Below the pieces are notes generated by a model that saw only the letters and a program-made list of their open reading frames with translations, searched no databases and had not been told where the DNA came from. From positions 1 to 47,932 of the IMG/VR virus record IMGVR_UViG_3300025141_013041: DNA of 47,932 bases; one strand, 5' to 3'. This DNA comes from a virus. This document shows, piece after piece, positions 1 to 47,263 of the stretch; within the stretch, counting starts at the first letter, position 1, and each line of letters starts with the position of its first letter. Made by a program: the position numbers and the translations under genes.

Positions 1-24
1 AGCCCATTCTTCTTTAAGTTTCAC
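1..24 (-). CDS. EEW-repeat protein, N-terminus only (cut by window edge)
   Basis: Reading leftward from a GTG at 24-22, the frame gives V/M-K-L-K-E-E-W-A and runs off the edge. The GTG shares its G with the TAG stop of the preceding gene, a typical translational-coupling overlap. The residues match the beginning of the nine-repeat protein upstream (MKLKQLINEEWA), so this is probably another member of the same family in the same operon. Only eight codons are visible, so the call rests on this match and the overlap. Confidence 0.55.
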
Positions 25-380
25 TATAAAACCATTTCCTTTTCAGTAGAAGTTTCTAGTTCTTTTTTATCGCCATCATCTTCATCATTATCTACTTTCA
101 TTTCGACTCTCATTCTAATAGTAGGAACTCTTCGTCCCGTAGCAAGTCTAACTTTCTTGCCAGTTTTTTGTATATCTATCATGGCATCTCTGCCATTCCA
201 CTTCTTAAATTTATTTAAATTTTTTATCGAAGCATCGATTACAAATATCTTATCATCCTTTCCATAGAAAGCAATTACGTTATTCCCGTCCTTCAGCATT
301 ACCTTTGCAAATCTCCCTGGAACATCTTGCGTTACTTTCTTTGCTTCAAACAAATCTTCTTGTAATTCTTTAAAGTTCAT
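24..380 (-). CDS. hypothetical late protein, 118 aa
   Basis: I do not recognise the family. It lies between two genes of the EEW-repeat family. Its ATG overlaps the 3' end of the large repeat gene by 11 bp, and its stop overlaps the next start. The N-terminus (MNFKELQEDLFEAKK) is a short amphipathic segment with an LFE-A site, resembling the capsid-targeting leaders that the T4 prohead protease cleaves after (L/I)xE. The middle is mixed and basic (GKKVRLATGRRVP). The C-terminus is strongly acidic (DNDEDDGDKKELE). A minor virion or internal head protein is an inference from operon position and leader only. Confidence 0.6.
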   Translation of the reverse strand: MNFKELQEDLFEAKKVTQDVPGRFAKVMLKDGNNVIAFYGKDDKIFVIDASIKNLNKFKKWNGRDAMIDIQKTGKKVRLATGRRVPTIRMRVEMKVDNDEDDGDKKELETSTEKEMVL

Positions 381-3300
381 ATTGTTCTCTTATTCTTTTC
401 TTAGCCTTTAAGATCTTATATTCCCCTTCCATCCTCTCCCTCTTATCTTCTACAAACGATGATGTCTTTATATATTTATCTACAAATTTCCAATTTTTTT
501 TTGCTATTTCAAATCTAACAGACTTGTCTACTAGATCGGTAACTGCAAGATCTTTTAGATTATGCACATCTTTAGTTTTAAATTTTCCACTTTCTAATTT
601 TGCTACACCACCAAGTAAATTAGAATTATTCCAATAGTCTGCCATACTTCTACTAAGTCCAATCTTTTTTGCCATTTCCATATGAGTTACTTCAGGAGTA
701 AAAACAAAGACTCTCTTATCAGCAAAATTTGCTATGTATCTTATCTCTCCTCCTTCAGAAGCTTTAAACATTTCTAAACCAGTTGGATTAACAAAAACAT
801 CAACTCTCATAGGTTCAGAAGTCTTTGCAAATCTTCTATTTATTGTTACTTTAGCTTCCCACCCTTCATTCATTTTTTTGATAGGAGCAAAAATCTTTGG
901 TGGAAGTTTTATATGATACTTCTCTACAAACTTCCAATTATTTTGCTTAAACTTATTTTTCTTTTGATTAGAAGAATGCTCATAGTTATGCATATCTCTA
1001 TCACCAGTTACCCATGTAGATAATTCTCTATGAGCGATTCCACCAAGGAGATAGGTCTGTGCTTTATAATCAGCAGGGCGCATCTTTAAAAACTTATTAG
1101 CTATTTGCCAATGAAGTATTCTATCTGAGAATATATAGACATCTTTAGTTTTTGCATTAGCTAACCATCTTATTTCTTTCAGTTTTGGATTTTGACCTTC
1201 TGATTCTACTTTTCTTGCTTCAGAGCTAGATGGATTTTTATAAACTGCGAAATTATTTATCTCATCTACAAACTCTTCATTAAAATCATCAGGTGACAGT
1301 TTAGATCCTTTTACTATGTTATATTTTCTATCTACTTTAATGTATTTTTCTATATACTTTGGTGGTAACTTAGTATGCTCATCTGAACCATCAAAATTCC
1401 ATTGACCACCCTCTGATTTAGCAGTTCCCCAATAATCACCATCAGTTTTAACATCAGAATATTTAAATTTAAATTTTTCTTCTGCTACATCAACATGTAA
1501 TACATCAGGTCTAAAAACATATACTTTTCCTTTACGAGCTATGAATCTTACATATAAATTATTATGAATCTTTTTTGCTACATCATTAAACTCTTTCCTA
1601 GATGGATTCCTGAATATTTCTATTGCAATATTCTTATTATAAGGACTTTTTATGGTTATGGTATCTTCCCATTCTTCTTTCAAATCTTTTATTTCTTTAT
1701 CTAACTGAGCTTTTGATTCTGGAGTTAGATATCTCTTTAACCAAGTAGTCAAATTTTTCTTTTTTAATTCTGTTAATAGCTCATCTATATATAAAAAATT
1801 TATATTAAGTTTGCCATTCTTAATGGCAGCTACTTCATAGTAATATCCTCTTTCTATATTGTCATATTGTGTGTAAGAATATTTTGTTCCAAGTTCTATT
1901 GCGGCACTTGCGTGAAGAAGATCTGGTTTCCAAACATAAAGATTCTTCTTATTCATATCGATCAGAAAACGAACACGACCTGGAGTTGTACTAACTTTGC
2001 CTGTGCTAACTTCAAAACGTTTGGTGCCGCCTACTTCATTTACTTCTTTAGCGGTTGGGTTCTTAAAGATTTCATATGTATCCTTACCCTTTTTAGTAGA
2101 AGCTGCCCATTCTTCATTTACAGGAATAATAAACCATCTCTTGAACCAGTCAGTTCCATATTTTTTAACAAATATATCAAAAGCCATTTCAGCTACATTA
2201 TTTTCTGTATACTCACTATCTGAAACAATAGTAATCTTTCCATTTTTTACATCACCCAATCCCCACACATATCCTCTTTTTGCATCGTATATAAAACTGT
2301 TATAGTTATCAGACATTCCTAACTCTTTAGCAGCTTCACCGTGCAATAAATTTGGGTCCCAAACATATACTTCTTTTTTATGTCCATCTAACATATATCT
2401 GATTGAACCACTTCTCTTACTGCTTTCTTGTATTTCTTTCTTAGAAGGGTTCTTGAATATATCAAAGATGTTAACTTTTGGACCTGTGTGTCTTGTTTTC
2501 TTTTTAACAGAAGCTTCCCACCCTTCGCTTATTTTTTTCTTCTTGGTCTTAGCTTCAAATCTTTTTTTATTCTTAATAATATTTTCATTAAACCCAGGAA
2601 TGTATTTATTAACAAAACTCCAGTTTTTATTTAACGTACCACCTATTTCTTTTAATTCTTCTGTTCCCCATTCTGACATATCTTCATCGTCATCAATATC
2701 TGTTTTATCTGCATAAAGTATTTTTTTAGTTTTTGGGTTATATGTTCCACCAGCAAAAACAATACCAGTGTAATAATCTGAACCTCTTGGAAAAACATTT
2801 TCTGCAACAAGTTTGTAAACTGCGGTGCTATGTATAATTCTAGAAGTAAATATATATACTTTTTTTGAAGGGTGATGAGCTAAAAATCTTATTACTCCAT
2901 CTCTTAAACCCGCTTTTGAAATTTCCATCATTTCTTTTTGAGAAGGGTTCACGAAAAATTCAATAGTTCTATCCCCTTTACCAGTTGAAGCAGCCCATTC
3001 TTCTCCATAAAGTTTTTGATCCTTTAATCCTTCTATACTAGCAGATGTTCCAGCGAAATATTTATCTACCCAGCTCCAATCTTTCTTTTGTAGAGTTTCT
3101 CTTCCTCTACCAAACTCAGCGTTGAATGAATGAAGGAATGTTCCTCCACCATTTTTAAACTTACCTTCGCCAGCAAGTATTGATTCATTGTCGTGAATAT
3201 TTGTATCTGTTTTTCTGAAAATACCTTTTTCTGCTAAACGCTTAAATGCTATATCGTGAAGAAGACCAGCTCCCCAAATATATACAGTCTTTGTTGAATG

Positions 3301-4233
3301 AACAGCAAAGAAGCGAATATTACCTGACTTAGTACCTTTTGATACTTCTTGTATTTCTTTCTTAGTTGGATTTTTAAATATTTCAAAAGTTTGATTACTT
3401 ACCTTAACAGTTTTTTCCCATTCTTCGTTTAATCCTTTTGAATCAAACCATTTACTTAACCAATCTGCATCGTATTTTTTAAAGAGTCTTTGAGCTGGAT
3501 TTCGAACACTTAGAAAATTTAGTTTACCTTTATTAACGCTACTTACTCCAAATAAATATCCATTGCTCCCGTGTGGTGAATCTTCTGCATACTTACCACC
3601 AATACCTAACTCTTTTGCTGCATACATATGAAATAGTTCTGAGTCAAATACATAAAGATTTTTATTTATTGCATCTATAATAAATCTAAGGTAAATACCA
3701 CCTTGTTCTTCTCTACCAGTTTCTTTTATTTCTTTAACGGTTGGGTTCTTAAATATTTCAAAAGTTTGACCATCTTTTTTAGTAGTAGTTGCCCATTCTT
3801 CTTGAAGAACTTTATTTATTTTAAAATATTTTCTAAACCAGCCAGTTTTGAATCCTGCTTTCTTATATCTCTCCACTCCTGCTGTATCTGTAGCATCAAG
3901 AGTGAATACAGGATTTGCTTTCTTTACACCTTTTGCCATTCCCCATATATACCCTTCTTCCCCTGCATCATCATCTTCGTAAAAACGATAATATCTTTGA
4001 AATCCAAGTGCTTCTGCTGCATCTTGATGAAGTAAATCTGCATCCCATACATAAAAGTTTTTCTTATTTCCATCTATCATAAATCTAATATCGTCATAAC
4101 CGCTAGTGCTAGCTTTAAGAATATCCACTATTTCTTTTCTAGAAGGGTTCTTAAATATTTCGTAGGTGATATCACCACCTTGTATAGAAGCTGCCCACTC
4201 TTCATTAATAAGTTGCTTAAGTTTCATCTCCAT
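370..4233 (-). CDS. giant tandem-repeat late protein with nine EEW/KNP domains
   Basis: About 1,287 residues made of nine diverged copies of a ~140-residue domain. Each copy opens with [LIVFM]xE-[EG]-W, then xIFKNPxxKE, then a beta-rich stretch xxIRFxxDxxxKxVYVWxxxLLHxxAAxxLG, and ends in a W(F/V)xKY helix. EEW boxes fall near positions 4195, 3792, 3418, 2994, 2518, 2107, 1668, 1268 and 858. I chose the ATG at 4233 over one 39 nt upstream because a late-promoter octamer lies at 4236-4243; ATG 4227 (MKLKQLINEEW) is also possible. I do not know the domain's function. KNP/LLH-type single domains occur in other large phages (from memory). Repeat boundaries resemble T4 prohead-protease sites, so a cleaved internal head protein is one hypothesis. 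Confidence 0.75.
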   Translation of the reverse strand: MEMKLKQLINEEWAASIQGGDITYEIFKNPSRKEIVDILKASTSGYDDIRFMIDGNKKNFYVWDADLLHQDAAEALGFQRYYRFYEDDDAGEEGYIWGMAKGVKKANPVFTLDATDTAGVERYKKAGFKTGWFRKYFKINKVLQEEWATTTKKDGQTFEIFKNPTVKEIKETGREEQGGIYLRFIIDAINKNLYVFDSELFHMYAAKELGIGGKYAEDSPHGSNGYLFGVSSVNKGKLNFLSVRNPAQRLFKKYDADWLSKWFDSKGLNEEWEKTVKVSNQTFEIFKNPTKKEIQEVSKGTKSGNIRFFAVHSTKTVYIWGAGLLHDIAFKRLAEKGIFRKTDTNIHDNESILAGEGKFKNGGGTFLHSFNAEFGRGRETLQKKDWSWVDKYFAGTSASIEGLKDQKLYGEEWAASTGKGDRTIEFFVNPSQKEMMEISKAGLRDGVIRFLAHHPSKKVYIFTSRIIHSTAVYKLVAENVFPRGSDYYTGIVFAGGTYNPKTKKILYADKTDIDDDEDMSEWGTEELKEIGGTLNKNWSFVNKYIPGFNENIIKNKKRFEAKTKKKKISEGWEASVKKKTRHTGPKVNIFDIFKNPSKKEIQESSKRSGSIRYMLDGHKKEVYVWDPNLLHGEAAKELGMSDNYNSFIYDAKRGYVWGLGDVKNGKITIVSDSEYTENNVAEMAFDIFVKKYGTDWFKRWFIIPVNEEWAASTKKGKDTYEIFKNPTAKEVNEVGGTKRFEVSTGKVSTTPGRVRFLIDMNKKNLYVWKPDLLHASAAIELGTKYSYTQYDNIERGYYYEVAAIKNGKLNINFLYIDELLTELKKKNLTTWLKRYLTPESKAQLDKEIKDLKEEWEDTITIKSPYNKNIAIEIFRNPSRKEFNDVAKKIHNNLYVRFIARKGKVYVFRPDVLHVDVAEEKFKFKYSDVKTDGDYWGTAKSEGGQWNFDGSDEHTKLPPKYIEKYIKVDRKYNIVKGSKLSPDDFNEEFVDEINNFAVYKNPSSSEARKVESEGQNPKLKEIRWLANAKTKDVYIFSDRILHWQIANKFLKMRPADYKAQTYLLGGIAHRELSTWVTGDRDMHNYEHSSNQKKNKFKQNNWKFVEKYHIKLPPKIFAPIKKMNEGWEAKVTINRRFAKTSEPMRVDVFVNPTGLEMFKASEGGEIRYIANFADKRVFVFTPEVTHMEMAKKIGLSRSMADYWNNSNLLGGVAKLESGKFKTKDVHNLKDLAVTDLVDKSVRFEIAKKNWKFVDKYIKTSSFVEDKRERMEGEYKILKAKKRIREQYEL

Positions 4234-7182: not shown

Positions 7183-7278
7183 ATCAGTTTCCGTATGGAG
7201 ACTTAATTTAACGCCAAGGCCGTAAAACATTTAGCCCATAGGCAAAAAAAACGGAATTGGCCCAACAGGAGGCGTTAT
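7183..7278 (+). promoter_or_regulatory. structured leader of gp32 mRNA, possible translational operator
   Basis: TAACGCC at 7209-7215 is exactly complementary to GGCGTTA at 7271-7277, which overlaps the end of the AGGAGG ribosome-binding site and reaches to one base before the start codon. The helix would hide the start. An A-rich loop lies between the arms. T4 gp32 represses its own mRNA through a folded leader followed by an unstructured AT-rich site; by analogy this leader may do the same. The pairing is seen directly; autoregulation is inferred. Confidence 0.4.
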
Positions 7279-8169
7279 ATGTCTGACGTAACTAGTGAGT
7301 ATCAGGAGATGCTCGATGCTATCAAAGCCGACAAAGAAAAGGCTGATAGTGGAGGTACCCGAAAATATTGGGCACCCAAAAGCGACAAAGAAGGAACTTT
7401 CGCAGTAAGGTTCCTCCCACCACTTAAAAAGATTGGAGAGAAGAAATTCTACTTTGATCACAAAAACCATTGGATTGACGGAAAGGCTTTTGAGTGCCTT
7501 GACCAAACTCTTGTAGACAAGGAAGGCAAGCTGCATGAAGCAGAGAAATGTCCTGCTTGTACTATGTATAAGAAATTATACAAAGTTGCTGACAATAATA
7601 GAAACTCTGAGGAGTGGAAACTTGCCGGCGAATTGAGAGACAAACAACGATATATTTATAGAGTGATTGTTCGTGGAGCAGAGGATGAGGCAACTCCAAA
7701 GTTCTATGAAACAGGACCAACTATTTTTAAGTCTCTCTACCATATTCTAACAGAGACAGATTATGGAATTATCGTTGATCCAAAAAATGGAAGAGATTAT
7801 AATATCGTAAAGGTTGGAAAAGGTCGACGGGCCAATTATGATCAATCCCTACCAGCAGCAAACACAAGTCCTATTTTCACAGAAGCTGCTAAAGCAAAAG
7901 AGTGTATTACTAAGGCAATGGAGATGACTTATGCATCTCTTATTGAATTCTCAAGCTCTAGTGCAATAACGCAAGCTCTGAGGGGTTATCTTGATCCAGA
8001 AGCTAAAACTGATCAAGAGGAAGATAGCCCAGCGAAACCTGTTCAGTCAGCACCAGCAGCAGCTAAACCGGTTGCTGAACAAGAAGCTGTTACTGAATCA
8101 GTGGAAAGTAATGACGATGCGGTGGAAGATAGCCTAGACGACATTCTTGGTGAATTCGAAGACATGTAA
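7279..8169 (+). CDS. single-stranded DNA-binding protein, gp32-like
   Basis: 296 residues. The N-terminal half has an OB-fold pattern (TFAVRFLPPLK, KKFYFDHKNHW) and the gp32-type zinc site: His64 (in HKNHW), Cys73, Cys91 and Cys94 (CPAC), close to T4 His64/Cys77/Cys87/Cys90. The last ~60 residues are a linker ending in DDAVEDSLDDILGEFEDM, the acidic tail by which gp32 recruits replication and recombination partners. It coats ssDNA at forks and recombination intermediates. Translation starts at ATG 7279 after AGGAGG. It stands first in a run with UvsX, a co-chaperonin and UvsW, has its own strong promoter, and is followed by a UUCG hairpin terminator. Confidence 0.9.
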   Translation: MSDVTSEYQEMLDAIKADKEKADSGGTRKYWAPKSDKEGTFAVRFLPPLKKIGEKKFYFDHKNHWIDGKAFECLDQTLVDKEGKLHEAEKCPACTMYKKLYKVADNNRNSEEWKLAGELRDKQRYIYRVIVRGAEDEATPKFYETGPTIFKSLYHILTETDYGIIVDPKNGRDYNIVKVGKGRRANYDQSLPAANTSPIFTEAAKAKECITKAMEMTYASLIEFSSSSAITQALRGYLDPEAKTDQEEDSPAKPVQSAPAAAKPVAEQEAVTESVESNDDAVEDSLDDILGEFEDM

Positions 8170-8174
8170 ACAAC

Positions 8175-8197
8175 AGGGGGCTTCGGCCCCTTATTTT
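8175..8197 (+). terminator. UUCG-tetraloop terminator after gp32
   Basis: GGGGC-TTCG-GCCCC with flanking A-T and G-T pairs is followed by TTATTTT. C(UUCG)G hairpins of this type also mark T4 gene 32 mRNA. The hairpin may also protect the transcript's 3' end while letting some polymerase through to uvsX. Confidence 0.8.
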
Positions 8198-8208
8198 AAG
8201 GAGTAATA

Positions 8209-15242: not shown

Positions 15243-16388
15243 ATGAAGAAACTTTTCGCGGCCCTCATTGGGCTGGCAATGTCGGCATCTCTTTTGTTCG
15301 CTGGTGGTTCCAACGAAGTAGCAAATGAAGATGTTGATACGATCAAGGCAGGATTTGTATATGTAGGACCAGTTGGAGATTACGGATGGACTTACGCCCA
15401 CGATCAAGGAAGATTGTTTGCAGAACAAGAACTACCTTGGCTTGAGACAGTGTATGTGGAATCGGTTGCAGAAGGTGATGCTGGAAGAATCATAGACAGA
15501 TTGATTATGCAAGAAGGGGCAACTGTTATTTTCACTACGAGCTTTGGTTATATGGATGATACCTTAGCAGCAGCTGCTAAATATCCAGATGTAATCTTTA
15601 TGCACTGTTCTGGTTTCAAGCAAACAGAAAATCTAGGAACTTATTTTGGTGATTTGTATCAAGCTTATTATTTAAATGGAATGATGGCTGGTACTTTGAC
15701 TAATACTAATAAGTTGGGTTACGTAGCAGCATTTCCAATCCCTGAATTGATAAGACACATTAATGCGTTTGCACTTGGAGCTAAAGCAGTTAATCCAGAT
15801 GTCGAGGTTCATGTAAGATGGACTTATGCTTGGTATGGTCCTGATAAGGCAAAGGAAGCAGCTAATTCTCTTATCTCTATTGGCGTAGATTCTCTTGCTT
15901 TTACAGAAGACACACCTGCCGTTATTGAAGTGGGACAAGAACATACAGAGAACGGAAAGCAGATCTATACGTTTAGTCACTATAGTCCTATGCAACAATA
16001 CGGTCCAGATTCTGTTGTATCAGGACAACTATCTGATTGGGGCATTATGTATGTAGAGATTCTTAATAGTATTAAAAATGGAACTTGGGCTAATGAAGAT
16101 ATGTGGTGGTTGATGAAAGAGAGGGCTACCTATCTTGGTGGAAATTATCTTAGTCCAGTTAATCCTTTGTTTGAATCTGCTTTGAATAAAACTGGTGTTC
16201 TACAAGACATTCTAAGTCTTTATGCAATAATGATAACAAAAGGACCAGAAGGTTTTGATCCATACGAAGGTCCAATATATGATAATGAAGGCAATCTTCA
16301 AGTAGCAGAAGGAACTAGAGCTAATAAGGGAGAACTACTTTCTATTATGTATTATGTTGATGGAGTGATTGGAAGTATTCCAGAATAA
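15243..16388 (+). CDS. PnrA/Med-type (BMP family) periplasmic substrate-binding protein, moron gene
   Basis: 381 residues. A signal peptide (MKK, hydrophobic core, SLLFA) is cleaved before GGSNE. No lipobox Cys is present, unlike most PnrA/BMP lipoproteins. The mature part begins IKAGFVYVGPVGDYGWTYAHDQG, the conserved opening of the family, with a type I periplasmic binding fold to the end. Family members bind nucleosides or autoinducer-like ligands for ABC import. It has its own consensus promoter, AGGAGG site and flanking terminators, so it can be expressed independently of the phage programme. Likely taken from the host, where it could supply nucleosides or alter the cell surface during infection. 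The FAGGSNE junction is what I know from spirochaete binding proteins. Confidence 0.85.
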   Translation: MKKLFAALIGLAMSASLLFAGGSNEVANEDVDTIKAGFVYVGPVGDYGWTYAHDQGRLFAEQELPWLETVYVESVAEGDAGRIIDRLIMQEGATVIFTTSFGYMDDTLAAAAKYPDVIFMHCSGFKQTENLGTYFGDLYQAYYLNGMMAGTLTNTNKLGYVAAFPIPELIRHINAFALGAKAVNPDVEVHVRWTYAWYGPDKAKEAANSLISIGVDSLAFTEDTPAVIEVGQEHTENGKQIYTFSHYSPMQQYGPDSVVSGQLSDWGIMYVEILNSIKNGTWANEDMWWLMKERATYLGGNYLSPVNPLFESALNKTGVLQDILSLYAIMITKGPEGFDPYEGPIYDNEGNLQVAEGTRANKGELLSIMYYVDGVIGSIPE

Positions 16389-18685: not shown

Positions 18686-18758
18686 TTTAATTAGCTAATA
18701 TTCTTTATGGTAAATAATGAGTTGACTATGTTTTGTCTGAGAAACTCTTAACAACTTA

Positions 18759-18766
18759 TAAAGATA
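18759..18766 (+). promoter_or_regulatory. late-promoter octamer TAAAGATA (endonuclease)
   Basis: TTATAAAGATACTATT is followed at once by ATG 18772, five bases after the octamer, with no ribosome-binding site between. Confidence 0.5.
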
Positions 18767-18771
18767 CTATT

Positions 18772-19641
18772 ATGAAATATTATGTTTATAAATTAATAGA
18801 CCCAAGAGATGAAAAAATTTTTTATATTGGTAAGGGAACAAATAATAGAATGACTTATCATGTTAGGCAAGTGAAGAGAGGAAAGAAACTTAATAATAAA
18901 CATTTGTATAATAAAATAAAACAAATATTAAATGACGACTTTAATGTAATACATGAAAAAATATTTCTTACTGATGTTGAAAGCGTCGCTTATGAACAAG
19001 AAAGAAAATTTATAGATAAATTAGGTCTTGATAATTTAGTCAACTTAACTATAGGTGGAAGAGGAGGCTTAGGTAGGCCGAAGGGGGATTTTGGTAAATC
19101 AAGAATAAAAGATGGAAAATTACTCTGTTCGAGTTGTAAATTGCACAAAGAATTTTCTGAATTTCATAAGGATAAATACTCTAAGAATAAACATAAATCT
19201 ATATGTAAAGAATGTAGGAAAGGATTTGTGTCACACCCGCACAACAAATTGCACAAAGAAAGAAAAATTTTTGATCGTAATGTAAATAATTCAATTTATA
19301 GATCGATAAAATTAAATAAATCTGGTAGAATTTGGGAAAGAGTTTTAGGTTATACTCTTAATGATCTAAAAAAACATTTAGAGTTACAGTTTTTAATAGA
19401 AATGAATTGGAACAATTTTGGTTCTTATTGGTGGATAGATAAAATAATTCCAGGTTCTGCCTTTGATTATAAGAATATAACTTCAAATGAATTGAGTAAA
19501 TGTTGGTCTCTTAAAAATATAAGACCGTTGTATAAAATAGAATGTATTAAGAAAAGGAATAAAGTAATTTGGCACTTGATTGATGAATATAAATTATATG
19601 ATATATTACCAATTGGTTTAATCAAAATTGACAAAGAATAA
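18772..19641 (+). CDS. GIY-YIG homing endonuclease with degenerate HNH-like C-terminus
   Basis: 289 residues from ATG 18772. Residues 1-95 are a GIY-YIG nuclease domain (YYVYKLIDP...FYIGKGTNNRM...H). Then comes a zinc ribbon (C119, C122, C145, C148). The C-terminal ~120 residues follow the pattern of the HNH domain typical of phage homing enzymes (LGYTLNDLKKHLELQF...MNWNNFG...WWIDKIIPGSAF...CWSLKNIRPL), but the usual WHIDHIIP is WWIDKIIP, so the catalytic histidines are missing. The HNH part is probably only a DNA-binding module and the GIY-YIG part cuts. It sits between the tail tube gene and thyX, with no intron signs, so it is a free-standing mobile gene. Confidence 0.75.
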   Translation: MKYYVYKLIDPRDEKIFYIGKGTNNRMTYHVRQVKRGKKLNNKHLYNKIKQILNDDFNVIHEKIFLTDVESVAYEQERKFIDKLGLDNLVNLTIGGRGGLGRPKGDFGKSRIKDGKLLCSSCKLHKEFSEFHKDKYSKNKHKSICKECRKGFVSHPHNKLHKERKIFDRNVNNSIYRSIKLNKSGRIWERVLGYTLNDLKKHLELQFLIEMNWNNFGSYWWIDKIIPGSAFDYKNITSNELSKCWSLKNIRPLYKIECIKKRNKVIWHLIDEYKLYDILPIGLIKIDKE

Positions 19642-24618: not shown

Positions 24619-25032
24619 ATGGAAAAAAAAGAAAGCGACATAATGGATTATGTTAAAGAGCTTGTTTCAAAAGAACAAAGACGTTCTTATAATAACAGTA
24701 AAGGAACTATTATTTTAAAAAATGGATTTGTTTTTCAAATAAGCTATATGTTTAATTTTTTTAGAGATAATTGGTTTGCTTTCACAAAAGCATTATTAGA
24801 ACCAGAAGGTGAACAAAAAGATTTACTTATTAAAATGTCTAATAATGGAATTACCACAAATGGAATCATTTCTATAGATTTAGAAGATGTTTCTGCAATG
24901 GTTGGTGAGAATCAAGAAAGTATGTTACATTTCCCATCTATTGATGAAGATCATGTTATACAAGATGATGTTAATTTTAATAATGAAGATGAAGATGATG
25001 AAGACATTGTTGAAAACTTAAACTTTAACTAA
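24619..25032 (+). CDS. hypothetical protein with acidic tail, 137 aa
   Basis: It starts 5 bp after the gp46 stop. The N-terminal half is basic and beta/helix mixed (GTIILKNGFVFQISYMFNFFRDNWFAFTKALLEPEGE); the last 30 residues are very acidic (NNEDEDDEDIVENL). An acidic tail behind a small domain recalls ssDNA-mimicking or gp32-like partners, but no family is recognised. Its end overlaps the convergent minus-strand gene by 8 bp. Confidence 0.6.
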   Translation: MEKKESDIMDYVKELVSKEQRRSYNNSKGTIILKNGFVFQISYMFNFFRDNWFAFTKALLEPEGEQKDLLIKMSNNGITTNGIISIDLEDVSAMVGENQESMLHFPSIDEDHVIQDDVNFNNEDEDDEDIVENLNFN

Positions 25033-26425
25033 CAATTCTTTCTACACCTGGAACTTGTCTAATGCCGGCTGCCCTCTTTCTTTTCTTAGCTAATTTTCTT
25101 TCCTTAGCTTCTTGAGCTAATTTTCTAATTATTTCATCTTTATCTTTTTGTTCTTTTGGAGAAAGTAGTGTTTCAGCTGTTTTTAATATTCCTTCTTTTG
25201 GTGGTGTTTTAACCGTACTTTTCTTTCCAAATTTATCAGCTACATTTCCTACAGCTTTTCCTACAGCTTCTTTAGTCTTAGCTATGCCGGCTGCTGTTTT
25301 TGTCTTTATTTTTTCAGCAGCAGTTTTAAGTGGTTGAGTCTCAGCAAATTTACCAATTTTCTCTCCAGCTTTCCCCATTCTCTCTCCAGCTTTCCCCATT
25401 CTCTTATCAGTAGCTTGCACTACTTTTTCTTTTACCTTGCCATAAGCCCGTCTTGCCTTTTCTGCTTGTTCACTATCAAGAGCTTTGCCAACTTTATCAG
25501 TAATACCCCGTCCTGCTTTCTTAATGGCCTGTCCTGTTTCTCGTCCCTTTAATACTGTTCTTCCAATAGCACCTTTAAGGCCAGCTTTAACAGCTTGAGC
25601 TTCTGCAATTCTTGATACTGAACTTGCACTATTAAAAGCAGCACCAGCATTTTTAGGACCAGCCTTAGCTTTTTCAATAAGCTTATCCATTTGTTTTTGG
25701 TAAGTCTTTAGGATATTCTTAGTCTTATTAAATTTAGTTTTCCCGCCAAGAGAATTATCTGCTGCGAGATCATCTAAATTTTTCTGTATTTTATCAACTG
25801 TTCTATCTTTTAAGGATATAAGCTCTGCTATAGATGCAGGAGCTTTAGCCCTAGATTGTTCTGGGGCAGGTTGAGCAGCTTGAGTAGGAGCAGCTTGAGT
25901 AGGAGCAGCTTGAGTAGGAGCAGCTTGAGTAGGAGCAGCTTGAGTAGCTCCAGCATTTGCTTTAGGGTCTACAGTTGGATCTTGTGTAGTTTTTCCAGCA
26001 GGTGTACCTTCCTCTCCTTCTGTACTTTTTGTATCATTACTAAAATTATCTCTTTCGTGTTTATCGTCAAATCCCTGTTGAGTTAATTTATAAAATTTAT
26101 CTTGGGCTACTTCTTTTTTTGAATCAGGAAAGGAAATTTCTAATCTACCCAATGTTTCATTAGCTAGATTAACTTTTCCTTCACCATAATTAGAACCCAA
26201 CTTACGACTAACTTTAGCCATAATGTTTATGGCAGATAGAATGTTTTCTCCTCTTCCTGATGCTCTAAAGTTTTTATTAATTTTAATCTTATTTATTTCA
26301 CTCTTATCAACAAGTCTAAGAAATTTATTAGCTGCATCAAAGTTGTTGCTTACAGATTTTATTTTAGTTCCTTTGAAATCAAATATCGAATAGGCTGCTT
26401 CTATTAAGATATCATTTATTGTCAT
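25025..26425 (-). CDS. late, Ala/Lys-rich repeat protein, 466 aa
   Basis: I start at ATG 26425 (after GGAG) rather than 26437. The leader MTINDILIEAAYSIF contains LIE-A, a T4 prohead-protease-like site. Residues 1-110 are mixed; 110-185 are a Pro/Gln/Ala linker with a PTQAA unit repeated; the rest is a long series of basic amphipathic helices (KAGERMGKAGEKIGK is itself a duplication). Highly basic, Ala-rich helices after a cleavable leader fit an internal or core head protein packaged with DNA. A late-promoter octamer lies upstream. No enzymatic motif is seen. Confidence 0.65.
   Translation of the reverse strand: MTINDILIEAAYSIFDFKGTKIKSVSNNFDAANKFLRLVDKSEINKIKINKNFRASGRGENILSAINIMAKVSRKLGSNYGEGKVNLANETLGRLEISFPDSKKEVAQDKFYKLTQQGFDDKHERDNFSNDTKSTEGEEGTPAGKTTQDPTVDPKANAGATQAAPTQAAPTQAAPTQAAPTQAAQPAPEQSRAKAPASIAELISLKDRTVDKIQKNLDDLAADNSLGGKTKFNKTKNILKTYQKQMDKLIEKAKAGPKNAGAAFNSASSVSRIAEAQAVKAGLKGAIGRTVLKGRETGQAIKKAGRGITDKVGKALDSEQAEKARRAYGKVKEKVVQATDKRMGKAGERMGKAGEKIGKFAETQPLKTAAEKIKTKTAAGIAKTKEAVGKAVGNVADKFGKKSTVKTPPKEGILKTAETLLSPKEQKDKDEIIRKLAQEAKERKLAKKRKRAAGIRQVPGVERIVS
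25875..25947 (-). repeat. 15-bp tandem repeat coding for the APTQA linker
   Basis: Four perfect 15-bp units plus one partial unit encode a Pro-Thr-Gln-Ala-Ala linker. The unit is a multiple of three, so slippage would change linker length without a frameshift. Confidence 0.85.
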
Positions 26426-26543: not shown

Positions 26544-27788
26544 GTGTCATTCGTACAACTTCATTGTCATAATCATATAGGATCTAGATTAGATGCTATA
26601 GCAGGACCAGAAGATTATGCACAACGAGCAATGGAATTAAATCACCCAGCTTTAGCAACTACAGATCATGGAAGAATAAGTAGTTTCTGGGAACATCAAA
26701 CTCAATGTAAGAAGTATGATGTAAAGCCGATACTTGGAGTTGAAATGTATTTAACAAATCAACTTGAAGTAATAGACGATAAAGGAAAAAGAAAGAGAAC
26801 TAAAACTCAGCATATCATACTTCTTGTTAAAAATCCAGTTGGTTATAATAATTTATTAAAACTTAATTACTTGAGTATGAATGACTCAAAACATTTTTAT
26901 TATTCTCCAAGAATAACATTAAAAGAATTGTTTGAACATAAGGAAGGATTGGTTGTTGGAACTGGTTGTATAGCAAATCCAGTTTCAAAATTAGTTCTTG
27001 GAGAGAAGGAAGACGTTGCAGAAAAATTATATGTAATGATGGTTGGAGAATTTGGTGATGATTTTTATACCGAAGTTCAATTAAATGAACTTGAGGAACA
27101 GAAGGTCGTTAATGATTTTATGATTAGGATGGCGAACAAACACGGCATTCCAATTGTAATGACTGGTGATGTTCATTACTTAGATGAAGGACAAGATAAG
27201 CTTCAAACTTTAGCTATAGCTATTAGAGATAAAGCAACCATAGATAATCTTAAATTTGAGCTAGAAAGTAAATTTTTACATTATCATGATATAGATGATT
27301 ATCTTGATTTTAATAAAAAATTTGGATTCAATTATCCAGAGAGTGATATATTATCTTATTGTAGTAATTCACTAGCAGTTTCAGACAAATGTAATTTTAC
27401 TATACCTGAGAGAAGTAAGATTTTCTTACCAACAGTTTCAGATAACGATGATGCCCTTCTCATTAAAAAAGGAAAAGAAGGGTTAATGAATAGATTTGAA
27501 GTTGATGATTATAAAGAAGTTCCTAAAGAATACCAGAAACAATTAGCTAAAGAATTAGAAGTAATAATAAGAAAAGGATTTGCTAGTTACTTTCTTATAG
27601 TAGAAGATATAACACAATTTTCTATAAATGAAGGAATCTACGGAAGATTTGGCAGAGGCTCAGTAGGTGGAAGTTTATTGGCTTATGCTCTTGGCATCCA
27701 TAGTTTAGATCCAATAAAGAGAGGATTGCTATTTGAAAGGTTTATGTCAGAGTCTCGCTCTCCTGATTTAGTAATTAACTATGTTTAA
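26544..27788 (+). CDS. dnaE: DNA polymerase III alpha subunit, fragment 1 (PHP and start of palm)
   Basis: 414 residues from a GTG after AGGAGG. The N-terminus is a PHP domain (FVQLHCHNHIGSRLDA, TTDHGRISSFWEH). It continues to the palm entry GRFGRGSVGGSLLAYALGIHSLDPIKRGLLFERFM, which matches DnaE GRGSAAGSLVAYAL...LLFERFLNPER. In intact DnaE the next residues are the catalytic PDxDxDF; here the protein instead reads SESRSPDLVINYV and stops. The catalytic aspartates are therefore on fragment 2. This piece cannot polymerise alone and must assemble with the others, unless it is decaying. Confidence 0.85.
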   Translation: MSFVQLHCHNHIGSRLDAIAGPEDYAQRAMELNHPALATTDHGRISSFWEHQTQCKKYDVKPILGVEMYLTNQLEVIDDKGKRKRTKTQHIILLVKNPVGYNNLLKLNYLSMNDSKHFYYSPRITLKELFEHKEGLVVGTGCIANPVSKLVLGEKEDVAEKLYVMMVGEFGDDFYTEVQLNELEEQKVVNDFMIRMANKHGIPIVMTGDVHYLDEGQDKLQTLAIAIRDKATIDNLKFELESKFLHYHDIDDYLDFNKKFGFNYPESDILSYCSNSLAVSDKCNFTIPERSKIFLPTVSDNDDALLIKKGKEGLMNRFEVDDYKEVPKEYQKQLAKELEVIIRKGFASYFLIVEDITQFSINEGIYGRFGRGSVGGSLLAYALGIHSLDPIKRGLLFERFMSESRSPDLVINYV

Positions 27789-27789
27789 T

Positions 27790-27818
27790 TTGCAAAAAAA
27801 GAATAGGAATGTTATAAT
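27790..27818 (+). promoter_or_regulatory. sigma70-type promoter of polymerase fragment 2
   Basis: TTGCAA (27790-27795), 17-bp spacer, TATAAT (27813-27818). The ATG at 27825 is six bases past the -10 box, at the expected transcription start, so the mRNA would be leaderless. Confidence 0.6.
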
Positions 27819-27824
27819 AAATTA

Positions 27825-28694
27825 ATGGAAACATTTAGAAAGTTCAAGAGTTATCTTGATGAAAAAGCTAATGGCCTGGCAGAAGAATTGCAGAAAAAAT
27901 ATAAGAAAGAACTTATATATGCAAAGAGATATTATGATAATGGAATTAATTTATTTGAGTACTTAAAAGAAAACTCTAGTAAAGTTAAGGCTCGATATAT
28001 AATTCCATATCTAATGGGAATTACAGATGAAGTAGAAGATGAAGAATGGGAATATAAATATGTAAAAACTGGTAGTTCTGGTGGAGTTGACATAGACTTA
28101 GATTTTGATCCAATTGGAAAACAAAAAATTCAAGATTATCTATTTGATAAATATGGCGAAGACAGAGTTTTGCATGTAGGAACATTTAATAGATTAGGTA
28201 TTAAGGCAGCAGTAAAAGATTTACTTAGAGTTTACAAAGTAGACTATGTAGAATCTAATAAATTTTCTAAGGCTTTAGAGCCTGATTTAACTTGGGAAGT
28301 TAATCTAGTTAACTTAAAAGAAAATAGTCCAGACATTTATCAATTTTATTTAAATCATAAATCAATACTTGATATGACTCCATACTTTGTTAATAAAATA
28401 AGACAGGGAGGTAAGCATGCGGGTGGAGTCGTCATCCTTGATGAGAGCGTTTATAACAGAATTCCAGTTGATAGGGTTACGGGGGAAGTTGTTACGGCGT
28501 TTCCTGAAAGTAGTCAAGAGCAGGTTCTTGACGAAGTGGGTGTTGTAAAGTTTGACATACTTGCAATATCTATTTTGGATGTAATTAGAAATACTATTAA
28601 TATGATAAATGAGAAAATGTTTCTTATAGATGAAGATGGTGTAGAGAAAATAGTTCCTCAGAGCTATTTAGATAAGGAGATTGAGAAATTATAA
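27825..28694 (+). CDS. dnaE: DNA polymerase III alpha subunit, fragment 2 (catalytic palm)
   Basis: 289 residues. Residues 1-85 are a helical, charged extension with no counterpart in DnaE (METFRKFKSYLDEKANGLAEE...). From residue 86 it reads GVDIDLDFDPIGKQKIQDYLFDKYGEDRVLHVGTFNRLGIKAAVKD, the catalytic PDxDxDF motif and following palm. GGKHAGGVVI and VVKFDILAIS (third catalytic Asp) follow. It ends at SYLDKEIEKL just before the fingers. The new N-terminal extension may be an assembly tail to fragment 1, like tails seen on split phage enzymes. Confidence 0.85.
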   Translation: METFRKFKSYLDEKANGLAEELQKKYKKELIYAKRYYDNGINLFEYLKENSSKVKARYIIPYLMGITDEVEDEEWEYKYVKTGSSGGVDIDLDFDPIGKQKIQDYLFDKYGEDRVLHVGTFNRLGIKAAVKDLLRVYKVDYVESNKFSKALEPDLTWEVNLVNLKENSPDIYQFYLNHKSILDMTPYFVNKIRQGGKHAGGVVILDESVYNRIPVDRVTGEVVTAFPESSQEQVLDEVGVVKFDILAISILDVIRNTINMINEKMFLIDEDGVEKIVPQSYLDKEIEKL

Positions 28695-29048
28695 ATGGGA
28701 ACGTATTACCAAAGAACAAATTCTTGGGGAAGAACTTATACTTGTTACAGAAGATCAAGAAATACTAATGATATTAAGAAAAAAACTGACTATGTTAAAT
28801 CAAATGACAAACTTAAAATGCTTGGCATTCTATTTTCCGCTGCTTATAGAGCATCAGAAAATAAAGGATTGACTTATAAAACCATGAGAGTTTTTCTTAA
28901 TGTTGATGCTGAAGCACATGATGGAAGCAGAATGTACAATTATTTAAATATTGATATAAGTAAGAATAATTTTAATTATGATGGACGTATATATACAAAT
29001 CATGAAAGAATTTGGGGGAAGAGAAAATCGCAAATTGTAAAGGTTTAG
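28695..29048 (+). CDS. hypothetical protein in polymerase gap, 117 aa
   Basis: The ATG follows the fragment 2 stop directly, in the same frame. The protein has a basic, aromatic N-terminus (YYQRTNSWGRTYTCYRR) and a body KMLGILFSAAYRAS...YLNIDIS...DGRIYTNHER. The second half resembles the product of the next gene (ALGFMFLSRLES...YLSILCRNDGICIVNHER), which suggests a tandem duplication. No family is recognised. Confidence 0.55.
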   Translation: MGTYYQRTNSWGRTYTCYRRSRNTNDIKKKTDYVKSNDKLKMLGILFSAAYRASENKGLTYKTMRVFLNVDAEAHDGSRMYNYLNIDISKNNFNYDGRIYTNHERIWGKRKSQIVKV

Positions 29049-29284
29049 CAACACCTATATTAAAATATAGAGGAAATTTAAAATTTAAAGCTTTGGGGTT
29101 TATGTTTCTATCAAGATTAGAATCAGTATATGTTAAAATTTTAATAGAAAATAATCTTAATGATAAAAAATATTTATCAATTTTATGTAGAAATGATGGT
29201 ATTTGTATAGTTAATCACGAAAGAGGATGTTCTGATAGGAAATATGAAAGGTTTAAAGATTACACAGGGAGGATTAAATTATGA
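29012..29284 (+). CDS. hypothetical protein in polymerase gap, up to 90 aa, start unclear
   Basis: The frame opens at a TTG (29012) inside the previous gene, and the first ATG is not until 29102. A GGGGG run at the overlap could join it to the upstream frame by a -1 slip (GRIYTNHERIWG then EEKIANCKG), giving one ~195-residue two-repeat protein; two separate genes are equally possible. The stop overlaps the next ATG. Confidence 0.45.
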   Translation: MGEEKIANCKGLATPILKYRGNLKFKALGFMFLSRLESVYVKILIENNLNDKKYLSILCRNDGICIVNHERGCSDRKYERFKDYTGRIKL

Positions 29285-29472
29285 TAAATAACGCTAAAGT
29301 AGGAAGAATGGTGGTTGAACAATTTTCTTATATGCAAGGTTCATTGAATGCTTTAGAGGAACATTTAGAAGATGTAGAATTAAATGTTTCTAAAATAGGA
29401 TTTGAAGCTGGAAAATTGCATAAAGAATTTGAATTATTGATTACACTTCTTGACATAAAATTACCTACTTAG
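29281..29472 (+). CDS. small helical protein, 63 aa
   Basis: ATG 29281 overlaps the preceding stop (ATGA) and is preceded by GGGAGG. The product is one long amphipathic helix pattern (SLNALEEHLEDVELNVSKIGFEAGKLHKEFELLITLL), probably a short coiled coil. Function unknown. Confidence 0.6.
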   Translation: MINNAKVGRMVVEQFSYMQGSLNALEEHLEDVELNVSKIGFEAGKLHKEFELLITLLDIKLPT

Positions 29473-29496
29473 TAAAATAAGTTATTCGGAGGTGTG

Positions 29497-29871
29497 ATGC
29501 TTGATATAGATAAAGAAGAATTAAAAAGTAGATTTGTTAGAGAAGATTGGGAGTACGTATTCGATAAGGTTTATAAAATTGCTGAATTCATTTTAATTAA
29601 AAATTATAATGTATATAATCCAGAGTTACTTGCTGATATGAAACAGGAGTGTGCGGAAAACTTTTACAAAAAAATAGATCAAGGAAAAGTTGATGGTACG
29701 AAAAATATATTCAGTTTCATTTGGAAGAACTCAACATTTAGAATACTTGAGATTTTAAGGAAAGAAGGAAATAGAAAAAAAATTGCGTATTTTATGCCAT
29801 TTGATATGGTAGACTTTGAAGTCTATAGAAATGAAAATGTTTCTAATAGATATGCAGAAGCGCATGAATAA
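29497..29871 (+). CDS. possible gp55-like late sigma factor, 124 aa
   Basis: ATG 29497 follows GGAGG. The core ELLADMKQECAENFYKKIDQG, then KNIFSFIWKNSTFRILEILRKEGNRKKIAYF, lines up with T4 gp55 region 2 (QEMIADGIEASIKGLHNFD...[25 protein letters not shown]...YSYF): acidic helix, K-N-x-F-x-(Y/F)-I, then a basic helix. gp55 is a minimal sigma that recognises late promoters. The window's late octamer and this gene fit one system. The similarity is read by eye and is weak at identity level, so this could be another helical protein. Confidence 0.45.
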   Translation: MLDIDKEELKSRFVREDWEYVFDKVYKIAEFILIKNYNVYNPELLADMKQECAENFYKKIDQGKVDGTKNIFSFIWKNSTFRILEILRKEGNRKKIAYFMPFDMVDFEVYRNENVSNRYAEAHE

Positions 29872-29941
29872 TATGACTTGAGATATTGTAAATAAGATAC
29901 ATTCAAAACTTAAAAAAGCAGAACCAATTTTAGGACCTGGA

Positions 29942-30247
29942 TTGACATATTCTAAAGAAAGAGTTAAGCTTATTTCTCCAAGAATAAATTTTTTAACTTT
30001 ACATTGTTTATTTAGTAAGGGAAAAAATAATGATTGGATGAACAAAGATGAAACGGCATTTACTGAAAAATCTATTAAAACAACTCAAAATTTGATAGAT
30101 AGACATTATATAGAAAAAACTATAGGACTTAAAAAAAATTATTTTAAAGTAATTTATTGGGAGAAAGGGTTAAGTGATAACGATCTTGAAAGAATGTACC
30201 AAGACAGACTTAGAGAAATGGATTTACAAGCTGGACGAAAAAGATAG
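29942..30247 (+). CDS. hypothetical protein in polymerase gap, ~101 aa
   Basis: AGGA at 29932 points to a TTG start at 29942; no ATG is available until residue 31. It contains a basic middle (KTTQNLIDRHYIEKTIGLKKNYFKVIYWEKG) and overlaps the start of polymerase fragment 3 by 74 bp. A decayed gene is possible. No family is recognised. Confidence 0.4.
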   Translation: MTYSKERVKLISPRINFLTLHCLFSKGKNNDWMNKDETAFTEKSIKTTQNLIDRHYIEKTIGLKKNYFKVIYWEKGLSDNDLERMYQDRLREMDLQAGRKR

Positions 30248-31697
30248 CAACTTATATTTGGAGGCAAACAATACAGATAAGATTGGTATATTTCAGTTAA
30301 ATGGTAATACAGCGGAAAGACTTTGTAATGAAGTAAGGCCAGAAAATTTTCAAGAGATTATAGCTATTAATGCTATGGCCCGTCCAGGCCCACTTGAAAC
30401 TTGTGCTCCATATTATGTAGAAAGAAAAGAAAGTGGAATCTCTCCATATCCAAAAGAAGTAGAAGAAATTCTTAAAGAAAGTCATTACACATTTCTTTAT
30501 CAAGAGCAAATAATTGAAACGTTCCACAAGATAGGTGGATTTACTCTTGATGAAGCTGATGGTGTTCGTGGTCTTATGAAAAAACTTAGTAAAGCAGAGA
30601 AGGCAGAAGATGATGTAAAGGCTTGGAATAAAACAGTAAAAAAGTTTATTCGTGGAGCAAGCAAACTTGGAATTGATGAATCTATGGCTACTAAAATATC
30701 TCAAGACTTGCAAGCTTTTTCTGGTTATTCATTTAATAAATCACACGCTACAAGCTATTCATATATAGCTCTCATTACATTATATTTATCATATTACTTT
30801 AGAGAATATTTTTATTCATCAGTGCTTACTTATGAAATGGATAGAGATAAATATCTAACAGACAGAATTAATTCTGTACGTAAGCAAGGAATTGAAATCC
30901 TCCCGCCAGATATTAATAAATCAGATTCTCACTTTAAACCAGAGGATAATGGAAATATTAGATTTGGTTTAAATGATATTAAATTTGTTGGTGAAAAAGC
31001 GACAACTACTATTCTTGAAGAAAGAAAGAACGGTGAGTTTAAATCTATAGTAGATTTCTATGTTAGAACTAGAGGAAGAACTATGACAATTAAAGTTATA
31101 GAAGCCTTAATATCCACTGGATGTTTTGATTGGCAAGATGAGAATAGAAAGAAAGTATTACAAACAATTAAAATATTTTGGGAAAGAAAGAAGTCTAATA
31201 AGTTAGAAGAAAAGCTTATGGCTATCTATGAAGAGTCTAAAAAAATTATAGATTCACTTCCAGCTATAGAAACTACAATGGAAGATTTAGTAAATTACGA
31301 GAAAACATTCTTTGGCGTAAAGGTCTTTTCTTCCTTGTTCACTGACAATGTTCTTAAGGCTGTTAAGAAATTAATGGATATGAAAGTAGTTTATCCTACA
31401 TTAGAAGATGTTGGTGATCGTTCTATGAAGATTCCTGTGATAATAAATTCCATTAGAAGTTTCAATGATAAGAATGGAAACGAAATGGCCTTCATTAACA
31501 TAGAAGATCAAACAGGGAAAGAAATATCAGTTCCAGTATTTCAATCTTATTGGAAGCACGTTAAAGAAAATGTTGTTAGAGATAAGTTATTCTTAATAAA
31601 TGTTTATATGAATAATGATAGTGTTGTCTTTGGGCAACCAGATTGGACTGAAAGTGATTTCAAGATTAAAAGGATGGTTAGGCAAATAGGTAAATGA
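30174..31697 (+). CDS. dnaE: DNA polymerase III alpha subunit, fragment 3 (fingers, HhH, OB)
   Basis: 507 residues from a GTG after AAAGGG. DnaE landmarks: KIGIFQLNGNTAERL, INAMARPGPLE, FLYQEQIIETFHKIGGFTLDEADGVRGLMKK (fingers), AFSGYSFNKSHATSYSY, ILPPDINKSDSHF (HhH region) and an OB-fold near the end (ISVPVFQSYWKHVKENV). It begins where fragment 2 ends in the family alignment (YKLDEKDSNLYLEANNTDKIGIFQL), so the three pieces together cover a whole alpha subunit (1,210 residues in total). Confidence 0.85.
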   Translation: MITILKECTKTDLEKWIYKLDEKDSNLYLEANNTDKIGIFQLNGNTAERLCNEVRPENFQEIIAINAMARPGPLETCAPYYVERKESGISPYPKEVEEILKESHYTFLYQEQIIETFHKIGGFTLDEADGVRGLMKKLSKAEKAEDDVKAWNKTVKKFIRGASKLGIDESMATKISQDLQAFSGYSFNKSHATSYSYIALITLYLSYYFREYFYSSVLTYEMDRDKYLTDRINSVRKQGIEILPPDINKSDSHFKPEDNGNIRFGLNDIKFVGEKATTTILEERKNGEFKSIVDFYVRTRGRTMTIKVIEALISTGCFDWQDENRKKVLQTIKIFWERKKSNKLEEKLMAIYEESKKIIDSLPAIETTMEDLVNYEKTFFGVKVFSSLFTDNVLKAVKKLMDMKVVYPTLEDVGDRSMKIPVIINSIRSFNDKNGNEMAFINIEDQTGKEISVPVFQSYWKHVKENVVRDKLFLINVYMNNDSVVFGQPDWTESDFKIKRMVRQIGK

Positions 31698-33953: not shown

Positions 33954-34452
33954 ACTCAATCAAGTAAATAAAACAATCACTGGTGAACTCTTGACTCCTT
34001 ATTTAGTTGAAGGGAAGAATGTTCTGTGCTGGAACAGGTCAGGAAAAAGCGTAACTAAGGGAATGAATGACTTTAGTTTAAAGGGACCATCCGCTAAAGA
34101 ATCAATGAATAACGGCACAGCAGTTTCCTTACTTCCAATTACTCCAGTATATACAAGGAAAGTAGTTCCTACTCAAGTAGTTCAAGAAGTTGAAATTTCA
34201 CAACCTACTTTAGAAAAAGAACCAGTTGCTGTAGAGGAAATCACTACAACTATCGATGGTCCTAAAGCTGTAACTGCTTCTCCCGATGAAACAGAACCTG
34301 ACAAGGTAATCTATGTACATGTTGAACCAGCAATAGATGATTACTTAGGTGATGGAGAAATGCAAGCTGGCGGTGTAGAAGTTGTACCAGTGGAAGAAGT
34401 TGAAGGCAGAACGGAATTTATACCTATGATAGAAGATGAGGATTATATATAA
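33946..34452 (+). CDS. acidic hypothetical late protein, 168 aa
   Basis: The ATG overlaps the previous stop by 8 bp. A short N-terminal segment (LRLNQVNKTITGELLTPYLVEGKNVLCWN) looks folded; from about residue 65 it is a Val/Glu/Pro/Thr-rich, strongly acidic, low-complexity tail with many VE and EE pairs. Function unknown; such tails are usually flexible spacers or interaction regions. Confidence 0.6.
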   Translation: MLRLNQVNKTITGELLTPYLVEGKNVLCWNRSGKSVTKGMNDFSLKGPSAKESMNNGTAVSLLPITPVYTRKVVPTQVVQEVEISQPTLEKEPVAVEEITTTIDGPKAVTASPDETEPDKVIYVHVEPAIDDYLGDGEMQAGGVEVVPVEEVEGRTEFIPMIEDEDYI

Positions 34453-34712
34453 TGAATTTTGAAGACATAGTAAGCGAAGAATTATCACTTGACTTAGATG
34501 CAATGAAATCTGAAGTAAAAAAGATTCTAGGTCAAATAGCAGATAAAGATGAAGAAATAGCAGATAGAGATAAAACTATTAAAGACTTACAAGCTAGGTT
34601 AGCTGGGGCTAATGTTCCAAAAAAACCAGCATTTAAAAGTGGTGTTGGGACTACTAGAACTATAGGTGGTGCAAATAATAGTGCTAATACACCACAAGAA
34701 AAAGGAATTTAA
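34452..34712 (+). CDS. small coiled-coil late protein, 86 aa
   Basis: The ATG overlaps the previous stop. MNFEDIVSEELSLDLDAM is the short acidic leader shared with other late genes. Residues 15-55 form a heptad-like coiled coil (VKKILGQIADKDEEIADRD). A Gly/Asn-rich tail follows. Unknown function. It overlaps the convergent gene by 4 bp. Confidence 0.6.
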   Translation: MNFEDIVSEELSLDLDAMKSEVKKILGQIADKDEEIADRDKTIKDLQARLAGANVPKKPAFKSGVGTTRTIGGANNSANTPQEKGI

Positions 34713-36592: not shown

Positions 36593-36780
36593 TGCATACT
36601 AAACAAGAAATAGAGAAAGGTTTAATTTCTTTAGAGACTATGATTACTACAATGGAAATAACATTAAAAACAATAGGAAATCTTACTTCTTTTGAAAGAG
36701 GAATGAAAAGTCAAAGAACTATAGGTTATCTTAAACCTTTAGTAGAGTTTATAGAAGAGAAAAAAGAGGAGCTGATATGA
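36592..36780 (+). CDS. small helical protein, 62 aa
   Basis: It is coupled on both sides (TAATG upstream, ATGA downstream into the FtsZ-like gene). It looks all helical (IEKGLISLETMITTMEITLKTIG...LVEFIEEKKEEL). Its tight coupling makes it a candidate partner or adaptor of the FtsZ-like protein, an inference from order only. Confidence 0.55.
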   Translation: MHTKQEIEKGLISLETMITTMEITLKTIGNLTSFERGMKSQRTIGYLKPLVEFIEEKKEELI

Positions 36781-41950: not shown

Positions 41951-41993
41951 AATGGTAGAATGGTAGAATGGTAGAATGGTAGAATGGTAGAAT
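41932..41993 (+). repeat. octanucleotide array (TAGAATGG)7 across a gene end
   Basis: Seven perfect TAGAATGG units (41932-41987) and a partial eighth. The stop codon of the preceding gene (41948-41950) is within the array. Because 8 is not a multiple of 3, each copy gained or lost shifts frame, yet every frame meets TAG within eight codons. Confidence 0.95.
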
Positions 41994-42011
41994 AAGAGGA
42001 GGAACAATATT

Positions 42012-47253: not shown

Positions 47254-47263
47254 GGAGAAAAAA

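Follow-up and report, generated by a model that had tools for sequence, protein, structure and literature searches.

Bacteriophage T4 has three capsid-targeted internal proteins, IPI, IPII and IPIII, which are injected into the host and inhibit GmrSD type IV restriction. It also packages and injects an ADP-ribosyltransferase (ART), Alt. Among the phage proteins that host defenses encounter first are the injected internal proteins, only a few of which are understood. Those designated IP1-3 in T4 are subtype-specific type IV restriction inhibitors that block different enzymes and have only their leader in common (PMC12373910). For packaging, the first ten residues suffice; residues 4 and 7 of this capsid targeting sequence (CTS) serve targeting, and residues 8 and 10 serve processing, i.e., cleavage (PMC9026906).

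Here we analyze a 47.9-kb IMG/VR fragment ("the window," meaning the whole stretch of DNA), whose T4-type genes include those for a baseplate hub protein, a gp32-like protein, a UvsX-like recombinase, and a helicase. One of its genes encodes nine diverged copies of a single domain, which we call EEW. We favor, with fair confidence, the reading that EEW proteins form a new family of T4-type internal head proteins whose modules are probably also separated by protease.

EEW proteins resemble T4 IPI-III in having a 10-residue N-terminal leader with the same spacing of hydrophobic residues, I/L, and E, in their units of 15-18 kDa, and in being diverged, clustered accessory genes of T4-like viruses, some of which have a gp21-type protease in their records. 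They differ in showing no sequence likeness past the leader, in forming one family of about 90 modules and not a set of unrelated folds, in having up to nine copies per chain, and in the residue after the leader, which is usually E or K, not A. EEW is not a homolog of IPI-III. With Alt it shares a short N-terminal extension, a putative propeptide in EEW, and, in the window, a gene position beside a baseplate hub gene. No profile searched identifies EEW as an ART, though some relatives fuse an ART domain to it. Polyvalent proteins (Iyer et al., 2017, PMC5512222) are likewise multi-domain and likely injected, and EEW relatives carry fused ART-PolyVal and inorganic pyrophosphatase (InPase) domains. 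The window protein, in contrast, repeats one domain nine times, has no recognized polyvalent domain, and bears a T4-type leader. Several different effector domains in one chain are not found in it (L015, L020, and L021, three of the related loci, carry InPase or, below cut-off, ART-PolyVal), and it is not a polyvalent protein in the strict sense. The ejection proteins of SPN3US/phiKZ, which are packaged, form paralogous sets with common N-termini, and have N-terminal propeptides cut after E by a gp21-related protease, are similar in these respects, but their motif is A/S-x-E, their propeptides are mostly long, and no tandem release of repeated domains is described for them (PMC5694885). Among open-licence papers, a literature search turned up none describing a chain of repeated cargo domains that is processed in the prohead.

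The nine-module gene runs on the minus strand from an ATG at 4233 to 373, with its stop codon at 370-372, and encodes 1287 aa (149 kDa, pI 9.3); a TTG start further out would give 1300 aa. Its parts and neighbors are listed in Table 1. An earlier note on this DNA, made from the letters and open reading frames, had described nine copies of a ~140-residue module. A profile built from the modules does recover all nine (E 1e-34 to 1e-47, a partly circular result), but their length is not fixed, ranging from about 125 to 171 aa. Pairwise identity of modules 2-9 to module 1, the reference, is 20-44%, and six columns (E, N, P, E, R, H) are invariant in all nine; eight of the nine are basic. Direct repeats are also seen in the DNA. 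Module starts are marked by [hydrophobic]xE-[E/G]-[W/F], and the bodies share F/Y-x-NP-xxx-E, an R opening a strand, and an H opening a helix. Counting back from the E of the module start as position 0, the residue at -2 is [LIVFM], as the note had it, in eight modules, with Y in module 4 (LYGEEW).

Table 1. Features of the nine-module EEW locus and adjoining genes (positions in the window).
Feature	Position	Strand	Basis
Start of next gene (VKLKEEWA)	1..24	-	Completed in twin contig, L037:14210-16621
118-aa gene with start MNFKELQEDLFE-AKK and syntenic counterparts in L005 and L025; its possible leader has LFE at the end, ahead of A	24..380	-	ORF, synteny
Nine-module EEW protein	373..4233	-	ORF and translation; nine modules by profile
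EEW module 9, preceded by KKMNE; nearest to module 4 in the L005 protein of the syntenic locus	373..864	-	Profile
EEW module 8, preceded by DDFNE	865..1275	-	Profile
EEW module 7, preceded by KDLKE	1276..1674	-	Profile
EEW module 6, preceded by IPVNE	1675..2112	-	Profile
EEW module 5, preceded by KKISE	2113..2523	-	Profile
EEW module 4, preceded by KLYGE	2524..3000	-	Profile
EEW module 3, preceded by KGLNE	3001..3423	-	Profile
EEW module 2, preceded by KVLQE	3424..3798	-	Profile
EEW module 1	3799..4200	-	Profile; AlphaFold2 model, pLDDT 83.9, pTM 0.81
Leader MKLKQLINE, T4 capsid targeting sequence-like	4201..4227	-	L at -6, L at -3, I at -2, E at 0
T4 baseplate hub-type gene adjoining the EEW gene, syntenic in L005 and L025	4581..5462	+	PF12322 E 1.4e-10; phrog_150 E 5e-14

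A search of viral contigs with the nine-module profile yielded 35 loci, all from uncultivated viruses, with about 90 distinct modules. No significant EEW relative was found by tblastn in 50,697 phage records, nor in GTDB genomes scanned with one degenerate pattern, which distant relatives could escape. In a set of 69 modules, P and H never vary, and conservation exceeds 90% at E9, N27, E32, and R48. In most relatives the modules are separate genes in tandem arrays, with 8 single-module genes in L018, 13 genes in L012, and 4 in L028; fusions of two, three, four, and nine modules per protein also occur. Other EEW modules are fused to an InPase (L020, E 4e-42), to GNAT acetyltransferases (L026), or to ART-PolyVal (L015, E 1e-6, just under cut-off; weak in L021). 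A protein with a HEIAH motif and no Pfam hit is fused to EEW at L015:373-1617.

The number of modules varies even at one syntenic locus, consisting of the baseplate hub gene, the EEW gene, and a small gene: one in L025, four in L005, and nine in the window. In a tree of the modules, many of whose forks are poorly supported, window modules 1, 2, 5, and 6 separate from 3, 4, 8, and 9 as two groups, and module 9 pairs with module 4 of L005. By analogy with T4 IP1-3, modules that are so divergent and variable in number suggest what may be a repertoire of inhibitors against variable host targets.

Pfam and PDB sequence searches gave no EEW match, and PHROGs and PADLOC gave no consistent one (among 69 members, one hit phrog_20597 at 3e-4 and one hit PADLOC Orf5 at 9e-5). 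AlphaFold2 models of module 1 and of a single-domain protein from L018 (pLDDT 86.9, pTM 0.83 for the latter) both have a beta-beta-alpha-beta-beta-alpha core plus additional strands and helices. Foldseek returned nothing with E below 0.001 for the two models against PDB or for one of them against BFVD. By the same means (Pfam, PDB, Foldseek at E <0.001), the mature domain has no likeness in sequence or fold to T4 IPI, IPII, or IPIII. Weak hits to NFACT-R proteins (CCDC25, RqcH/Rqc2) recur in Foldseek, at a TM of about 0.3, and were not accepted as a relation. The note's remark that the domain has no nameable function thus stands after both profile and structure searches. Since the fold matches nothing known, the case for an effector role is drawn from context; the conserved N, E, R, and H may instead be the mark of an enzyme.

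Single-module EEW genes start with M[KR]xx-h-xx-[YF][LI]xE, for example MRLKQYINE, MKFLKYLQE, and, in L012, MKSYKQYINE; T4 ipII and ipIII start with MKTYQEFIAE (AF158101). Counted from the E, CTS residues 4, 7 and 8, 10 fall at -6, -3 and -2, 0, and all four positions are present in the leader of the window protein. Internal modules have lost the targeting half of this signal (-6, -3) and kept the processing half (-2, 0). Position -6 is hydrophobic in 35/55 N-terminal vs. 6/34 internal modules (p 2.5e-5) and position -3 in 45/56 vs. 13/34 (p 9e-5), with no significant difference at -2 (47/56 vs. 32/34); these counts were made without forcing the -2 residue. The entire leader persists in a few internal copies (FKSYIRE in L012, LQYINE in L007), as would be expected if leader-bearing genes had been joined recently. 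Residues 1-10 have a mean pLDDT of 65 in the module 1 model and 51 in the L018 model, and the first strand of both begins at or just past the conserved E, so that the conserved start lies outside the fold.

Rather than belonging to the EEW domain, the leader is portable, being common to otherwise unrelated proteins in EEW loci. It occurs on 51 of 649 non-EEW genes in these loci vs. 10 expected, and in its strict form, [YF][LI]xE, on 33 of 649 vs. 2.1 expected, the expectation being taken from segments further along these proteins. Within five of the records, genes near EEW genes carry it more often than genes elsewhere (12/148 vs. 7/293, p 0.011; strict form, 7/148 vs. 2/293, p 0.008); these p-values are indicative, as genes within a locus are partly dependent and the genes, start codons included, come from our own simple gene caller. 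The non-EEW carriers include zeta-toxin-like kinase, HAD-motif, NT5C-like, amidoligase, nucleotidyltransferase-like, and ART-like proteins, some of these names being based on visible motifs or sub-cut-off hits. In L028, three unrelated genes, for a zeta-toxin-like kinase, a HAD-motif protein, and another protein (at 7266-8207, 1711-2391, and 2405-2848), have the common leader MKFxxYLxE. Two further genes of the window have CTS-like starts, MTINDILIE-AAYS (25028-26425, minus strand) and MNFEDIVSE-ELSL (34452-34709, plus strand), and are candidates for additional head cargo of this virus. The leader could provide a simple way to pick out the cargo of T4-like viruses that are uncultivated.

These observations bear on whether EEW proteins might instead be ordinary intracellular proteins made after infection, such as early host-takeover proteins or defense decoys, for which MKxxxYLxE would be just the start of the domain. 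Tandem arrays of diverged paralogs are indeed frequent among phage accessory genes, and a fold without a Foldseek match would suit such proteins. However, unrelated proteins bear the same leader, it is poorly ordered in both models and reduced in internal copies, and EEW genes lie within head-assembly operons; we consider this explanation improbable.

The genomic position of EEW genes also points to the head. They stand directly between terminase and portal genes in L003, L010, and L014 and adjoin the portal gene in L022, L004, and L023. In L011 a protease-domain gene and gp23 come after an EEW gene, and in L015 just one gene separates the ART-EEW gene from gp21, which has scaffold and gp23 genes after it. 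Terminase genes lie within about 4 kb of EEW genes in L018, L019, and L034. In all, 11 loci have EEW beside terminase, portal, gp21, or gp23. The window gene itself adjoins the baseplate hub gene, and phage structural proteins commonly contain tandem repeats, as would be expected if EEW modules were structural repeats of the tail, the baseplate, or a capsid decoration. We judge this very improbable, given the terminase, portal, and protease neighbors elsewhere, the strong divergence and 1/4/9 copy numbers of the modules at the syntenic locus, and the enzymes among the fusion partners; moreover, the T4 gene alt, for an injected effector, also adjoins baseplate genes (PMC5512222).

The note had proposed to look for a gp21-like protease elsewhere in the genome. 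Neither gp21 nor gp23 is found in the window or its nearly identical twin contig L037, both of which are fragments, but gp21-family proteases score above cut-off in 6 of 23 records, and also in L004, L014, and L022. Candidate cleavage sites picked by eye in gp23 of related viruses are YIVE-A, RVDE-S, LFE-G, LLE-A, LTE-A, and IAE-A, with A, S, or G at P1', in contrast to EEW starts, where E or K predominates at P1' and modules 5 and 9 have G. T4 IPs likewise have a small residue after the cut, though it is not clearly needed. In the leaders of non-EEW genes this position shows no constraint (E 6, A 5, S 5, Q 5, L 5), so E or K at EEW starts counts only mildly against cutting. The note's likeness between module openings and T4 prohead-protease sites is borne out at -2 and 0 but weakened by this P1' residue and by the frequency of hydrophobic-x-E, which occurs 34 times in the nine-module protein, only 9 of them at module starts. 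For this reason [LIVMFY]xE was rejected as stand-alone evidence of cutting, and only sites outside the fold could be real. A conserved C-terminal IxE-QYEL was also set aside as evidence, as it overlaps the start codon of the next gene.

The nine-module chain might alternatively be packaged and injected as head cargo while staying uncut inside, like beads on a string, with only its leader removed. The conserved E and hydrophobic -2 at module starts could be structural, the internal P1' residues are mostly E or K (G in two window modules) as against A/S/G at the candidate gp23 sites, and large ejection proteins such as the N4 virion RNA polymerase can enter the head without being processed (PMC5512222). 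We nevertheless regard an uncut chain as unlikely. Internal copies retain the -2 hydrophobic and E while losing -6 and -3, P1' varies freely among the leaders of unrelated genes, where E is its most frequent residue, and leader-like joints occur in other EEW proteins: MKLNE-SGIR ahead of a DHH-like region in L037, YVSE-SAS in L006, and a repeated MKKLKLKE linker before S, D, or E in L025. At L025:1-2694, blocks of an FDYxKGLDALIK... repeat are joined by the linker KKLPMKKLKLKE, repeated before S, S, D, and lastly an EEW module, and this repeat chain is a candidate second processed chain.

Under the reading that we prefer, of EEW as T4-type internal head proteins, the leader of about ten residues (hydrophobic at -6/-3, I/L at -2, E at 0) would carry an EEW protein into the prohead core, where a gp21-type protease would clip it after the E. 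The module would then stay next to the DNA inside the head and pass into the host on infection, where it would most likely blunt host defense or another host function, as T4 IP1-3 and Alt do. The window virus has nine modules in one frame behind one leader, and the protease would probably also free them from one another; an internal sequence such as DWFKRWFIIPVNE would on this model be cut but not targeted. The products, of 15-18 kDa and mostly basic, would stay with the DNA.

Confidence differs among these steps. Packaging into the head is very probable, and both cleavage of the leader and injection into the host are likely. An anti-host or anti-defense role is an evenly balanced proposition, and cleavage between the modules falls slightly short of that. 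Cutting at internal module starts agrees with the data, since the processing half of the signal survives there and the targeting half does not. More tentative again is the full proposal of a single capsid-targeted precursor of many diverged injected effector copies, freed singly by the prohead protease. The note's idea of an injected head polyprotein thus gains support for head targeting and likely injection, from the leader, synteny, gp21 in related viruses, and the fusions; its cuts at the modules are compatible with the same data. EEW should be filed as T4-internal-protein-like, leader-bearing candidate head cargo. If the model is true, a single gene with a single leader would supply an entire repertoire of inhibitors, and a previously undescribed family of about 90 diverged modules would form a large new candidate anti-defense set. 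The split of the signal, with targeting lost and processing kept, makes prohead polyprotein cleavage directly testable.

The note had also placed a second family gene at the edge of the sequence, starting at position 24. This gene is real and is complete in L037, where it encodes 803 aa, made up of a single EEW module and, after it, a DHH-phosphoesterase-like region (a weak match, E 0.03, under the curated cut-off, with HRDLDG and DHH motifs visible). Between it and the nine-module gene lies the 118-aa gene, which begins with MNFKELQEDLFEAKK and is absent from the note. The EEW-DHH gene starts with GTG in the window and ATG in L037, and module 4 differs between the two contigs at two residues (RT vs. 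GI), which points to variation between strains or to differences in assembly. In L037 a weak ART-like gene (E 0.09) follows at a short distance.

Several other genes of the window are of separate interest. A bacterial-type DNA polymerase (phrog_405) extends over three ORFs at 26544-31697, which match profile positions 42-440, 444-617, and 607-1062; about 1.5 kb of other ORFs separate the second and third parts, possibly representing an intron, a homing element, or a truly split polymerase. Along with its T4-type genes, the window encodes a Tubulin/FtsZ-family GTPase (36777-37796; PF00091 E 1e-11) that matches PhuZ (phrog_4733 E 1.7e-7). An ABC substrate-binding protein of the Bmp/PnrA-like type (15243-16388; PF02608 E 5e-43), whose N-terminus is hydrophobic and signal-like, is unusual for a phage and a possible host clue. 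At 18733-19641, a GIY-YIG endonuclease is fused with an endonuclease VII-like region, and 37797-47932 holds a sugar-nucleotide cluster of an MptE-like gene, a glycosyltransferase, three epimerase-like genes, an aminotransferase, and others.
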